Assembly (NCBI GenBank): GCA_003602645.1
Contig: QQSI01000020.1
Coordinates: forward strand, 9,452-54,582
Direction: 5' to 3'
DNA: 45,131 nt
DNA from: Candidatus Poseidoniales archaeon
GTDB lineage: Archaea > Thermoplasmatota > Poseidoniia > Poseidoniales > Poseidoniaceae
The translations under genes were made by a program, and so were the position numbers. Within the stretch, counting starts at the first letter, position 1. Each line of letters opens with the position of its first letter. The notes under the pieces were generated by a model. It saw only the letters and a program-made list of their open reading frames with translations. It was not told where the DNA came from and did not search any database. Below are positions 8,734 through 25,736 of the stretch, in pieces.

Positions 8734-8819
8734 GCCGAGATCGCATAGCCTGGTAGTGCGCGCGACTGGAAATCGCGTGGGCCCGTCCCTCGGGAGTTCA
8801 AATCTCTCTCTCGGCGCCA
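8734..8819 (+). tRNA. tRNA-Ser (anticodon GGA), CCA encoded
   Basis: Acceptor GCCGAGA/TCTCGGC, anticodon arm CGCGA-CTGGAAA-TCGCG (GGA), long variable arm, T-arm GGGAG-TTCAAAT-CTCTC, discriminator G plus CCA at 8817-8819. Confidence 0.93.
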
Positions 8820-8953: not shown

Positions 8954-9757
8954 ATGGGTTTCAGTTCAAAGTGTTACGATTTATCTGAAAGTTCTAGGTT
9001 TCAAAATGCGATTCTCGCTCTGATTGTTCTGAATGCTGTCACCATCGGCATGGAGACTTTTTCATTCTCTAAATCCACGACGACGATTTTGGAAGCACTT
9101 GATTCGGTCATCTTGTGGGTGTTCATCATTGAACTGATCATTCGATTAATCGGAGGTGGACTTGGCTTTTTCAAAGATTCATGGAACAATTTTGACTTCG
9201 TTATTATTCTCTGTTCCATTTCCCCCGCAACTGGCCCGTTGAGCGTTCTTCGTGTGTTCCGTGTCTTCAGAGCGCTGCGCCTTGTATCAAGCATGCCAGA
9301 AATGCAGCGCATGGTTGAGGCAATGCTGCGTTCATTGCGCGGTATTGCGGCCATAAGCTGGCTCTTGGTGATTGTCATGTATGTGTTTTCGGTGATGGGG
9401 ACCATGTTGTTTGGCAATGGCGGGGAGGCTGGTGAGATGTATTTCGGAAACCTCGGCCTCTCGCTTTACTCACTCTTCCAGATCATGACGCTCGAATCAT
9501 GGTCGAATGGCATTGCTCGCATGATTGTTGATGAGCAAGGTTGGTGGGCTGCTCTCTTCTTTGTCACCTATATCATCAGCACATCGTTCACTTTCCTCAA
9601 CATGTTCATTGCTGTGTTCACCAACACAATGGCAGCGATTGACGTTGAAGACGAAGGGGGAGAAGAAATGGCCCAGGTTCTTCGCGAACTTCAACTTGAA
9701 ATTGCTGACCTCAAGGGCATGATTGAGCGCAGTGTGGTCGACCATGACGATGAGTAG
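8954..9757 (+). CDS. Voltage-gated ion channel, single 6-TM domain, NavBac-like
   Basis: S4 PLSVLRVFRVFRALRLVSSMPEMQRMV with Arg every third residue; pore LYSLFQIMTLESWSNGIARM; S6 FVTYIISTSFTFLNMFIAVFTNTM; C-terminal coiled coil. ORF track start at 8948 is a TTG; ATG at 8954. Confidence 0.9.
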   Translation: MGFSSKCYDLSESSRFQNAILALIVLNAVTIGMETFSFSKSTTTILEALDSVILWVFIIELIIRLIGGGLGFFKDSWNNFDFVIILCSISPATGPLSVLRVFRVFRALRLVSSMPEMQRMVEAMLRSLRGIAAISWLLVIVMYVFSVMGTMLFGNGGEAGEMYFGNLGLSLYSLFQIMTLESWSNGIARMIVDEQGWWAALFFVTYIISTSFTFLNMFIAVFTNTMAAIDVEDEGGEEMAQVLRELQLEIADLKGMIERSVVDHDDE

Positions 9758-9793: not shown

Positions 9794-9868
9794 TGGAGCC
9801 ACCGGCGAGAATTGAACTCGCGACCTCCTCATTACCAATGAGGTGCTATACCGCTAAGCCACGGTGGC
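9794..9868 (-). tRNA. tRNA-Thr (anticodon GGT), CCA encoded
   Basis: Reverse complement GCCACCGTGGCTTAGCGGTATAGCACCTCATTGGTAATGAGGAGGTCGCGAGTTCAATTCTCGCCGGTGGCTCCA; acceptor GCCACCG/CGGTGGC, loop TTGGTAA, discriminator U then CCA. Confidence 0.94.
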
Positions 9869-10013: not shown

Positions 10014-10211
10014 ATGGGATGGAACATGGAGCGAGAGCTTGAAACAAAAACGGAGATGCGACAACGAGTTCGTGATCTTCAGAGCCAAGTAGATGAATTG
10101 AAAGACCTTGTGAACACGTTACTTAGCGTGATATGTGAGGAACCGGATGGTGTGCACAGTGGTGCTGCACCGACGATACCTGGGCAACCAGCTACCAATT
10201 ACTGCATGTGA
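10014..10211 (+). CDS. Small coiled-coil protein (65 aa), hypothetical
   Basis: MERELETKTEMRQRVRDLQSQVDELKDLVNTLLSVIC heptad-like; non-overlapping ORF preceded by a TATA-like element; ends 3 nt from the convergent RtcB stop. Confidence 0.55.
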   Translation: MGWNMERELETKTEMRQRVRDLQSQVDELKDLVNTLLSVICEEPDGVHSGAAPTIPGQPATNYCM

Positions 10212-21075: not shown

Positions 21076-21363
21076 ATGGGTCGAACTGTTCCAACATGGC
21101 GGACACGAATTGAAGATGAACTTCAGAATTTAGAGGCGTTTCGTCGAGCGCTTCCCTCAACGGAAAAGCCGCTTCTTGATGCTCTCTGCACTGGAGTTCG
21201 GCATCGCAGAACAGCCGGGGGCATGTTGCCTTCACATGATGTATGGAAGCCGATGCTCTTGTCGATGCTTGTCGAAATCATGGTTCAAAATTCAAAGTTG
21301 GAGCATCGCATTCTGGAACTTGAACTGGCGATGGTGGAGCGAGATGATCGGCTCGATTCTTGA
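21076..21363 (+). CDS. Small conserved protein (RTVPTxR N-terminal motif, reminiscent of haloarchaeal DUF8156-like proteins)
   Basis: MGRTVPTWRTRIEDELQNLEAFRRALPSTEKPLLDALCTGVRHRRTAGGMLPSHDVWKPMLLSMLVEIMVQNSKLEHRILELEL; stop overlaps the next gene's ATG (21344) by 20 nt. Family resemblance is from memory. Confidence 0.65.
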   Translation: MGRTVPTWRTRIEDELQNLEAFRRALPSTEKPLLDALCTGVRHRRTAGGMLPSHDVWKPMLLSMLVEIMVQNSKLEHRILELELAMVERDDRLDS

Positions 21364-23764
21364 TGTCCAAAGTGCGGCGAATGGTACATCGATGGACGTT
21401 TGGTTGGTTGGTGGGCCAGAAGGTGTTGTCAAAGTCAATGTTCCATGGTGTCCTTCAATCCATGTTCATGCGTCGCAGCATCGGCTGAATCATCTGTGCG
21501 CATGGCTTGAGCAACCAGAGATACGGGACCGGTTTGGGGTTGGTTTGATGCGGATGTACCGCTCCCGACTTTCACTTGACGCGTCGGAAGTTGATGAAGT
21601 GCTCGAGATAGATGTCCACAACAGTTGGAACATGAGAAAATTGGCAGCCCACATCGAGTCGCGTGGTGATTACAGGCACTATACGCTCTATTCGGTCGAT
21701 GCCCATCTTGCACAGCGGTTTCAAATTGAATTCGGTATCGCTCCGTTTCAAACTGTTGAATGGAATGGTTCATCCTTTGAAACCGCTCTCTCACCCATCG
21801 CACCAAATCTGGTGATTCTTCACATGGCTGTGCATTACCAAACTCAAACCGGGTTTCATACTGAGCAAGCAGAAATCGAATCTGTAGAGTTCCGCAGATG
21901 TTCACATGACGGGATGCATGAAGACGAAGCCTCACCTATCGCCACATTGAATCGCCACCCCGGTGAGGAGACAGAATTCCTTGAGCGCCTCGAATCGACC
22001 ATGCGTGCTTTGGATCCGGATGTGGTGGTCACGAATGGAGGCGATGGCCTTCACTTTCCCGCCTTGATTCGAATGGCATCCAGGTCAGCCACACCCTTCT
22101 CTCTGAGTCGAGATGGGCGACCATTAGCGGCTCGAACATCAGCCCGCACTCTGCACTCCTACGGTCAAACTTTGCACAAAGATGGTTACATCCCGTTGTA
22201 TGGGCGCCTCCACATCGATCGAAATGGAAGTTTCATTGTTCGCGAGGGTGGCTTGCTAGGGTTGTTTGAGCTGGCGCGTCATTCGCAGCAATCACCTCAG
22301 GACATCTCGCGCCTTTCACCAGGCTCGGTGATCAGTGCGATTCAGATGCGCACGGCTATGGAAGATGGCGTGCTGGTCCCGTGGAAGAAAAACAGGCCGG
22401 AAGATACCAAAACCGCATGGTCATTGCTTCACGCCGATCGTGGAGGGCTTTACCTTGATAGCAAACCCGGTGTTTACGAACATGTCATCGAGCTTGACTT
22501 TGCCAGCCTGTTTCCAAGCATCATTGCGACTCGTAACATTTCAACTGAAACCCTCAATTGCCCATGCTGCCAAGCCACGGTTGGTTCAACAGCTGCAGCC
22601 TTTGTCCCCTTGCACCCAGACGAAGCAGAGCGTGCCTTTACAGAGCGACATACTGAACGCTACTTTGGAGCTGGTTTGTTCCCAATCACTTCCTCGAATG
22701 CCTTGCTTGTCCCCGGCTTGACATCACACACATGCGGGCGAGTGCATGGTTTTCTCGGAAGGATTGTGGCACCTCTGATCGAACGTAGACGGCAACTGAA
22801 AATTCTCAGCAAAGCAAAAGGCGATGCAGAAGATCAGCAACAGAATGCACTGAAATGGTTGCTTGTCACCTGTTTTGGCTACACGGGTTACAAGAACGCT
22901 CGGTTTGGACGGATTGAGGCGCACGAAGCTATTTGTGCGTGGGCCCGAGACATTCTCCTCGACACCATCCAGATGGCTGAAGACGATGGGTGGGAGGTGC
23001 TGCATGCCATTGTTGACTGCGTTTGGATTCAAGACCTGAGGGGGCGAAGCCCTGAGCAACGGTTGATTGACGCTCATGAGTTTGCCCAGAAAGTCACATC
23101 ACGAGTTGGCATTCCTCTTGAGTTCGAAGATGCCTATCGATTCATCGGTTTTGTACCAAGTCGAGTTCACGGCGCAGGTTCTTTGACAAAGTACTGGGCC
23201 TATGGATCACATGGCCTCAAAGTACGTGGCATCGAGCAACGTCAACACTCCACATGTGCCTGGATTTCTGCCATGCAAAATTCAGCATTGCATCTCTTAG
23301 TTGAGCATTCTAATGAGGAGGACGGTGTTCCAAGCGAAGAAGGTCAAAGGGCCGTCGCAGACCTTCTGCGAAAGCAACTAAGTCGACTTGAACACCAAGA
23401 AATTGATCTTGAAGATCTCGTGGTGGCGCGTCGAGTCGACCGAGAAGTAAGCGAATTCAATGTCGCTACTTTGACTCACGCTGCATTGCTGCGGGGGCGA
23501 CTTCATGGTGTTACCATACCGCCGGGTGGCAAGGTACGGTTCGTTGTTGTCGCTGGCTCTGGGACTGTACAGCATGAACGGGTCCTCCTCCTTGAGGAAC
23601 TTCGCCATTCCAAAACCACCACTAAGCGTGCCAATATTGCTCACTATACGCCACTGGCACAGCGCGCCATCTGGGCCATTTTAGCACCATTCGGTTGGGA
23701 TGAAGAGGAAATTGCAGTTGGACGCCGACGCGCATCGCTCAAAACCTTCACAACAGCCGATTAA
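21344..23764 (+). CDS. B-family DNA polymerase homologue with degenerate motif C and exonuclease motifs (PolB2/Dpo2-like)
   Basis: Motif A VIELDFASLFPSIIATRNIS; motif B ALKWLLVTCFGYTGYKNARFGRIEAHEAI; motif C position VLHAIVDCVWIQD instead of YGDTDS; no recognisable ExoI DxE. ATG at 21344 preferred over the ORF-track start. Confidence 0.85.
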   Translation: MIGSILDVQSAANGTSMDVWLVGGPEGVVKVNVPWCPSIHVHASQHRLNHLCAWLEQPEIRDRFGVGLMRMYRSRLSLDASEVDEVLEIDVHNSWNMRKLAAHIESRGDYRHYTLYSVDAHLAQRFQIEFGIAPFQTVEWNGSSFETALSPIAPNLVILHMAVHYQTQTGFHTEQAEIESVEFRRCSHDGMHEDEASPIATLNRHPGEETEFLERLESTMRALDPDVVVTNGGDGLHFPALIRMASRSATPFSLSRDGRPLAARTSARTLHSYGQTLHKDGYIPLYGRLHIDRNGSFIVREGGLLGLFELARHSQQSPQDISRLSPGSVISAIQMRTAMEDGVLVPWKKNRPEDTKTAWSLLHADRGGLYLDSKPGVYEHVIELDFASLFPSIIATRNISTETLNCPCCQATVGSTAAAFVPLHPDEAERAFTERHTERYFGAGLFPITSSNALLVPGLTSHTCGRVHGFLGRIVAPLIERRRQLKILSKAKGDAEDQQQNALKWLLVTCFGYTGYKNARFGRIEAHEAICAWARDILLDTIQMAEDDGWEVLHAIVDCVWIQDLRGRSPEQRLIDAHEFAQKVTSRVGIPLEFEDAYRFIGFVPSRVHGAGSLTKYWAYGSHGLKVRGIEQRQHSTCAWISAMQNSALHLLVEHSNEEDGVPSEEGQRAVADLLRKQLSRLEHQEIDLEDLVVARRVDREVSEFNVATLTHAALLRGRLHGVTIPPGGKVRFVVVAGSGTVQHERVLLLEELRHSKTTTKRANIAHYTPLAQRAIWAILAPFGWDEEEIAVGRRRASLKTFTTAD

Positions 23765-24483
23765 ACTCCTGTTCGTACTGTTGGTAAAGTTGACTTCCTC
23801 TGTTCAATGGCTTGAACGAGGGTGATGAATGGTCGTTGAGTCGGCCACACGCCAATCGCACCAGTTGGTTGATGCACCAGAACCCCGCGATTTCGTAGCT
23901 TTGTCTGTTCTGCCTGTCGCAATTGTTGATCGGCTCTCCGTTCAACCATTGAAAGCAAGTGTTGGTGGCGCTTTGATTTGGGCCGATTGGAGGTGATGAT
24001 GATGACTGCGACATGGTGCATTCTAGCCAGATGCTGTAAGTTAGCAACCATCCTTCGCATCAAACAACGGGCTTCATGATCACCAACTTGTCGGTCCAAG
24101 TGCATCCCAATCGGTCCATCGATGATGACCAAAGGCGAAGCGGTGATGGACACTTCACGAATGAGCCGTTCCACCAATGTCGTCAATTGGTGAACGGTAA
24201 ATCCGCGTCCGATGAAAAGTCGACGAAGATGCTCTTGCGGAGCGGGCTCTGTCGGAGGAAAAGCAGCGAGAACCCGTGCAGGGTCAATTCTTGATGCCCC
24301 GTCAATCCAGTGGACGCATTCACCCCTTAACAGGGCAGATGCTGCCCAGTTTTCAGCATATTTTCTCATGCTTGATCCAACGCGTCCAGTTCCCTGAAGT
24401 TGATAGATCTCGCCACGCTTTGGAGCAATCGCTCGGAGGTTAAGTGGCGTCATACCTCGTTGGACTGGGGCTGAAATGGTCAT
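23761..24483 (-). CDS. RecA-superfamily (RadB/ImuA-like) ATPase-fold protein with degenerate Walker A
   Basis: RGEIYQLQGTGRVGSSMRKYAENWAASALLRGECVHWIDG; LFIGRGFTVHQLTTLVERLI; Walker B-like SPLVIIDGPIG; HHVAVIIITSNRP. Start at Met 24483 preferred. Confidence 0.7.
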   Translation of the reverse strand: MTISAPVQRGMTPLNLRAIAPKRGEIYQLQGTGRVGSSMRKYAENWAASALLRGECVHWIDGASRIDPARVLAAFPPTEPAPQEHLRRLFIGRGFTVHQLTTLVERLIREVSITASPLVIIDGPIGMHLDRQVGDHEARCLMRRMVANLQHLARMHHVAVIIITSNRPKSKRHQHLLSMVERRADQQLRQAEQTKLRNRGVLVHQPTGAIGVWPTQRPFITLVQAIEQRKSTLPTVRTGV

Positions 24484-24602
24484 ACCTCGGAAGGTGGTGA
24501 AATCGGCAGACCTTCTTTGCCCAGACCCCTTTGAGTAAAAGTGAACATGGACCACGCTCTTCTGTCATCAACTTGAAACACCGCGGACGCTCAAGGGCGG
24601 GT

Positions 24603-25736
24603 ATGAACGGCGGGGATTCATCATCTGACCCCCATGGTGAGCGCATCCTCGTACATTGTGATTTAGACGCGTTCTTTGCTTCGGTTGAGATTCTCCACCG
24701 TGACCTTGACCCTACCCGCCCATTGATCATCGGTTCAGATCCAAAGGGTGGTAGGGGTCGCGGTATTGTCTCGACGTGCAATTATGCTGCAAGGGCGTTC
24801 GGCATTCGTTCTGCGATGCCAATTGGTGAAGCTTGGCGAAGGTGCCCTGGGGCGCCATTTGGGACGGGGCATTACATCAGCGGTACGCGTGGCCTCTACA
24901 GCAGAGCATCGCGCAAGGTCATGGAATTGTTGAGACCACCAGCTGAACATTTCGAAAAGGCTGGCATTGATGAGGCCTACCTTGACATTACTAAGGCAGT
25001 GGATGGTGATTGGGACAAGGCCTATGCTCTTTGCCGCCAGTTACAAGATTCAATCGAGGACCAGGTAGGTTTGACTGCTTCGTTTGGAATCGCTCCGACT
25101 CGTATATTGGCCAAGATGTCAAGTGAAATCAATAAGCCGAAGGGAATTTTTCGCCTGCTTCCTGATGAGACTCAAGAGTTCTTCGTCAATCGTTCTCTTC
25201 GCGATGTCCCCGGTATTGGTCCCAAACGAGCCACGCAATTGGCTGAATGGGGATTCAATTCAGTGGACGAAGCATGCGAACTCGGGGAATTAGCTCTAGG
25301 GCGAATTGCGGGAGAACGCTTTGCCTCTTGGTTGATTCGGGTTGTGGACGGAACGACGAGTTCCGAAGTCAGCCCCCTACGCAGTCGTAAATCAATTGGT
25401 AAGGAGCATACATTTGGCCAGGATCAAAACAATCACGAACGGGTGCTCAACCATCTCAAAACCTTGGTGGAACTGGTGATGACAAAAGCCAAGACGATCG
25501 GTGTGGCTGGTCGGTTATGTGAGGTGAAAATTCGCTACACTGGATTTGAAACTCACACGCATGGTCGTTCAATACCTGTTGCCATGGATGACCTGGATGT
25601 GTTTAGCAGGCTGGCTGAACGTTTGTTTGCTCTGAATGTTGAACATCATCGGCCGATTCGTTTGATTGGCTTTAGACTTGGCCAACTGGATATGCCGACA
25701 ACAAGGCAAGCCAAACTGCTTCTTGAAGAGGAATGA
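24603..25736 (+). CDS. dinB: Y-family DNA polymerase (DinB/Dpo4-like)
   Basis: ILVHCDLDAFFASVEILHRDL, STCNYAARAFGIRSAMPIGEAWRRCP, FEKAGIDEAYLDITKAV, ASFGIAPTRILAKMSSEINKP, DVPGIGPKRATQLAEWG, RKSIGKEHTF. ORF extends upstream to 24531. Confidence 0.93.
   Translation: MNGGDSSSDPHGERILVHCDLDAFFASVEILHRDLDPTRPLIIGSDPKGGRGRGIVSTCNYAARAFGIRSAMPIGEAWRRCPGAPFGTGHYISGTRGLYSRASRKVMELLRPPAEHFEKAGIDEAYLDITKAVDGDWDKAYALCRQLQDSIEDQVGLTASFGIAPTRILAKMSSEINKPKGIFRLLPDETQEFFVNRSLRDVPGIGPKRATQLAEWGFNSVDEACELGELALGRIAGERFASWLIRVVDGTTSSEVSPLRSRKSIGKEHTFGQDQNNHERVLNHLKTLVELVMTKAKTIGVAGRLCEVKIRYTGFETHTHGRSIPVAMDDLDVFSRLAERLFALNVEHHRPIRLIGFRLGQLDMPTTRQAKLLLEEE

Follow-up and report, generated by a model that had tools for sequence, protein, structure and literature searches.

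A canonical BacNav-type voltage-gated channel gene, probably for a Na+-selective channel, at a tRNA insertion site in Marine Group II archaea

The window, a 45,131-nucleotide stretch of contig QQSI01000020.1, belongs to a Marine Group II (Poseidoniaceae) MAG of 1.76 Mb that is 85% complete. Its named near relatives, among them the one-contig MG-II chromosome CM001443.1, are assigned to Candidatus Poseidoniaceae/Poseidoniales. A channel gene lies between two tRNA genes, as the first-pass annotation had described (Table 1). Its ATG start codon is kept in relatives, and its product matched the Pfam family PF00520 (Ion_trans) at E=4.1e-47, far above the cut-off, as the sole Ion_trans match in the host genome. 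Comparison with a 94%-identical relative gave dN 0.020 and dS 0.44 (dN/dS about 0.05). The gene is under strong purifying selection, and the open reading frame is therefore a maintained protein and not a chance one. Elsewhere in the window, a family-B DNA polymerase (PF00136), a 264-residue protein encoded on the opposite strand with no Pfam match and a Y-family polymerase (IMS) adjoin at 21176-25736, in a layout reminiscent of bacterial ImuA/ImuB/DnaE2 mutagenesis cassettes, and a 1032-residue protein with TSP3-type repeats (PF18884; 38945-42043, + strand) is likely surface-exposed and Ca2+-binding.

Table 1 Features of the channel gene and its insertion site (positions in the window)
Feature	Position	Strand	Basis
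6-TM voltage-gated channel subunit, BacNav type, 267 aa	8954..9757	+	Ion_trans match, homologues, trees, model
S4 voltage sensor SVLRVFRVFRALRLVSS, R100/R103/R106/R109	9242..9292	+	three-residue spacing; invariant in homologues
Selectivity filter TLESWSNG, residues 179-186, Asn at position 7	9488..9511	+	alignment
C-terminal coiled coil EEMAQVLRELQLEIADLKGMI, preceded by acidic neck IDVEDEGG	9662..9724	+	heptad register; continuous S6/C-terminal helix in model
tRNA-Ser(GGA)	8734..8819	+	left edge of insertion site
tRNA-Thr(GGT)	9794..9868	-	right edge of insertion site

The conserved parts of the protein are those of BacNavs. It is a single six-helix Ion_trans subunit, as seen in both the Pfam match and the model helices, and its four S4 arginines, together with E60 in S2, D81 in S3, T179 and W183, are invariant across 33 archaeal and bacterial homologues, in which the Leu, Glu and Ser of the filter are almost invariant. 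The filter satisfies TLESWxxG, the BacNav filter motif (PMC4225499). The BacNav neck and coiled coil are also present: the tail follows a heptad a/d register (p about 0.01 against shuffles) that recurs in homologues, and it forms a helix in the model. A subunit with a clear S4 and a coiled-coil tail of the NavBac kind, both proposed earlier from the letters of the DNA, are borne out by these observations.

An AlphaFold2 model built from 17 sequences, monomeric and of modest confidence (pLDDT 74.5, pTM 0.46), shows S1-S6, two pore helices and a long helix running from S6 into the tail. When the predicted fold was compared with the PDB using Foldseek, NavMs ranked first and NavAb next (E 1.5e-13, 40% identity, TM 0.61). 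NavMs was also the best single-stretch sequence match in the PDB, aligning along the entire protein (residues 4-261; E about 1e-58). Human Cav3 chains outranked it because their score sums four repeats; the best single Cav3 repeat reached 91.5 bits, compared with about 202 for NavMs, and Cav3 was ruled out as the closest relative.

From its sequence, the protein is probably a canonical BacNav, a voltage-gated cation channel that assembles as a homotetramer, and we infer that it is selective for Na+. In such a channel, depolarisation would drive the four S4 arginines of each S1-S4 sensor past E60 and D81. The S5-P-S6 segments of four subunits would build a single pore lined by a ring of four E181 and W183 residues, and the coiled coil would clasp the tetramer and be linked with the gate by way of the acidic neck. 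The expected outcome is a brief, voltage-triggered entry of Na+ from sea water into the cell. Bacillus BacNavs have proposed roles in pH homeostasis and motility (PMC4225499), and by extension from them the Na+ entering the archaeal cell may feed Na+/H+ exchange, control of pH or membrane potential, or taxis.

Selectivity turns chiefly on position 7 of the filter. The first-pass annotation rightly recognised TLESWSNG as close to the filters of NavAb and NaChBac, but overlooked that Asn occupies position 7, where NavAb and NavMs have Met and NaChBac has Ser. Wherever the filter of an archaeal member could be read, it is TLESWSN, or TLESWSH in the two cases of L020 and L054, whereas the sampled bacterial TLESWS channels have Met at this position. 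A search of the literature for the filter strings TLESWSN and TLDDWSN found none. In NavAb, the M181A substitution raises PCa/PNa to 0.36-0.47, makes the channel permeable to Li+ and Ca2+ and abolishes divalent exclusion (PMC12919392), and it is this loss that makes position 7 the main question. Since Asn replaces Met at the position that governs Ca2+ exclusion in NavAb, Na+ selectivity of the window channel is likely but not assured, and by analogy the exclusion of divalent ions could be weaker in channels with Asn or His at position 7.

A similarly built channel whose polar position 7 leaves it poorly selective or permeable to Ca2+, and which serves Ca2+ or mixed-cation signalling, would fit both the uniform archaeal departure from bacterial Met and the behaviour of NavAb M181A, and CavMr and the AnclNavs typically have a polar or acidic residue at position 7 (PMC7041947). 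We nevertheless consider this reading unlikely. The archaeal filter retains Glu3 and Ser4 and has gained no additional acidic residue, the Ca2+ selectivity of CavMr does not need position 7 (PMC7041947), and NaChBac is Na+-selective with Ser there (PMC4225499), so that a polar residue at this position is not disqualifying alone. In Bacillus channels, a filter glutamate suffices for Na+ selectivity (PMC4225499). A separate observation concerns two bacterial channels with doubly acidic filters, from Nonomuraea (L059, TGDDWGN) and Microvirga (L065, TFDDWSG), which nonetheless group with NavAb-like channels; these may be filters of the Ca2+ type that occur naturally outside the AnclNavs.

The phylogeny is consistent with a canonical BacNav. 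In two maximum-likelihood channel trees, the archaeal orthologues, which split into clades A and B, formed one group (100/99 and 100/97) that adjoined NavAb, NavMs and alphaproteobacterial BacNavs (98/91 and 98/92); both trees left NaChBac and the AnclNav-like proteins outside this union. A placement among K+/Ca2+ or non-selective channels, which would have spoken against the initial identification, did not occur; family, tree, fold and key residues all bear out a NavBac-like channel in an archaeal genome. Within a bacterial sampling limited to plasmid records, Planctomycetota and PDB sequences, the archaeal channels are a branch new to a known family, placed beside the NavAb/NavMs-type BacNavs and not in the AnclNav group. 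AnclNavs have been reported from archaea (PMC7041947), and forcing the archaeal clade together with planctomycete AnclNav-like proteins cost 7.5 log units at AU p=0.055, which is no firm rejection of that union. However, given the position beyond NaChBac in both trees and a filter with Ser4 and Asn7 in place of the AnclNav signature (Gly or Asp at position 4, an acidic residue such as Asp at position 7), an archaeal AnclNav of the CavMr or NavPp kind is very improbable. Among the planctomycete sequences, L078 (G559) fuses a BacNav-like channel with an extended cytoplasmic part that looks like nucleotide-binding domains of the RCK/CASTOR type.

Within Poseidoniaceae the channel is an accessory gene present in single copy. 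Matches were found in 38 of the 171 genomes of the family, one of them (G133) weak and Kv-like, and in 6 of the 21 that are at least 90% complete; little weight attaches to a missing match in an incomplete MAG. Clade A occurs in genera g1, g3 and g7 and is about 62-94% identical to the window channel; clade B, about 42-47% identical, occurs in g5, g6, g9 and one g3 genome. Across 390 sampled genomes of the phylum, all good matches fell within Poseidoniaceae, and the sole match outside was a fragment from another family of the same order (L037, G450 C13). This fragment, truncated at a contig end, comes from a second voltage-gated channel whose S4 appears AnclNav-like by eye. Viral contigs searched with peptide patterns of the window channel gave no match, and one unannotated partial match (34.7%) came from a phage record.

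The tRNA-flanked arrangement recurs in seven genomes (the window, L039, L040, L041, L042, L044 and L055), most of which share neighbours on both sides, with two contigs stopping at tRNA-Thr. Because these congeneric genomes include the one-contig chromosome CM001443.1, a binning artefact was ruled out. Another 19 congeners have this tRNA pair upstream of RtcB but no channel within it, and the spacing between the two tRNA genes is 41-101 bp, or 313 bp in L097, compared with 974 bp in the window. The enlarged gap of L097 is a duplicated tRNA end; a channel remnant there was ruled out. Two empty-site genomes, L096 and L097, lie near the window lineage in the RtcB tree. The tRNA-flanked channel is thus a lineage-specific insertion between tRNA-Ser and tRNA-Thr. 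Between tRNA-Thr and RtcB, a conserved 65-residue coiled-coil-like open reading frame with no Pfam match (10014-10211, + strand) is also present at the empty site of L097, and the RtcB frame of L098 (G056) contains an internal TAA, reflecting a pseudogene or an assembly error.

In other lineages the gene lies elsewhere. It is found beside photolyase-related, MGMT, PRA-PH and UbiA genes at a second site (L043 and L045-L048; L049 and L056 on one side only), at a third site in L051-L053, and at further loci; genomes of the tRNA-site lineage, like several others, have the UbiA/PRA-PH locus without the channel. The empty tRNA pair in congeners and the different loci in other lineages indicate that the gene moved within the family, its position changing while the protein stays orthologous. 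Furthermore, in the channel tree G048 fell outside a group made up of the tRNA-site lineage and five site-2 genomes (96/89), whereas the RtcB tree grouped G048 with those site-2 genomes (92/87), a conflict that suggests, short of proof, transfer within the genus. The horizontal acquisition proposed from the tRNA position therefore holds in part, as mobility within the family; neither a bacterial donor nor a direction emerged, the gene has an unremarkable composition, and the archaeal channels form an old, monophyletic clade. An original acquisition from bacteria is plausible. A single recent transfer from a marine bacterium into the window lineage at the tRNA site would account for the split tRNA pair and the patchy presence, but is scarcely credible when the nearest sequences are all from Poseidoniaceae (94-62%, bacterial ones at most about 44%), GC (0.47) and GC3 (0.56) are close to those of neighbouring genes, and the surroundings of the channel showed neither an integrase nor an att repeat or mobile element.

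In the literature searched, archaeal BacNav relatives were mentioned solely as AnclNavs (PMC7041947), with none characterised, and no paper linked voltage-gated channels to Marine Group II in this sense, although orthologue sequences are already public, for example in CM001443.1. These channels extend the canonical NavAb/NavMs type into archaea, provide a natural experiment on how filter position 7 bears on selectivity between Na+ and Ca2+, and raise the question of voltage-gated Na+ entry in abundant uncultivated marine archaea. More speculatively, and with considerable doubt, Poseidoniaceae may own an old canonical-BacNav branch whose Asn7 or His7 confers a selectivity unlike that of bacterial BacNavs, carried by a gene that changes site within the family and equipping archaea that rank among the most abundant in the ocean with rapid, voltage-driven signalling by cations.

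Compared with known systems, the window channel resembles NavMs of Magnetococcus marinus (PDB 5hvx, 6sx5) from S1 to the coiled coil, in the TLESWS core and in the S4 arginines. It differs in overall sequence (about 40% identity), in Asn7 in place of Met7, in a longer S5-P turret (GNGGEAGEMYFG) and in S6, which reads NMFIAVFTNTM where NavMs has NLFIGIIVDAM. With NavAb of Arcobacter butzleri (PDB 3rvy, 5vb2) it shares the charge pairs of the VSD, the filter core and the coiled coil, at about 35% identity and with Asn in place of Met181. NaChBac and the Bacillus BacNavs have the same architecture, TLESW and a polar position 7 (Ser), but branch outside the group formed by the NavAb-like and archaeal channels. 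The AnclNavs CavMr and NavPp (PMC7041947) are likewise single-repeat voltage-gated channels, but carry the filters TLEGWVD and TLEDWTD and form a clade of their own.
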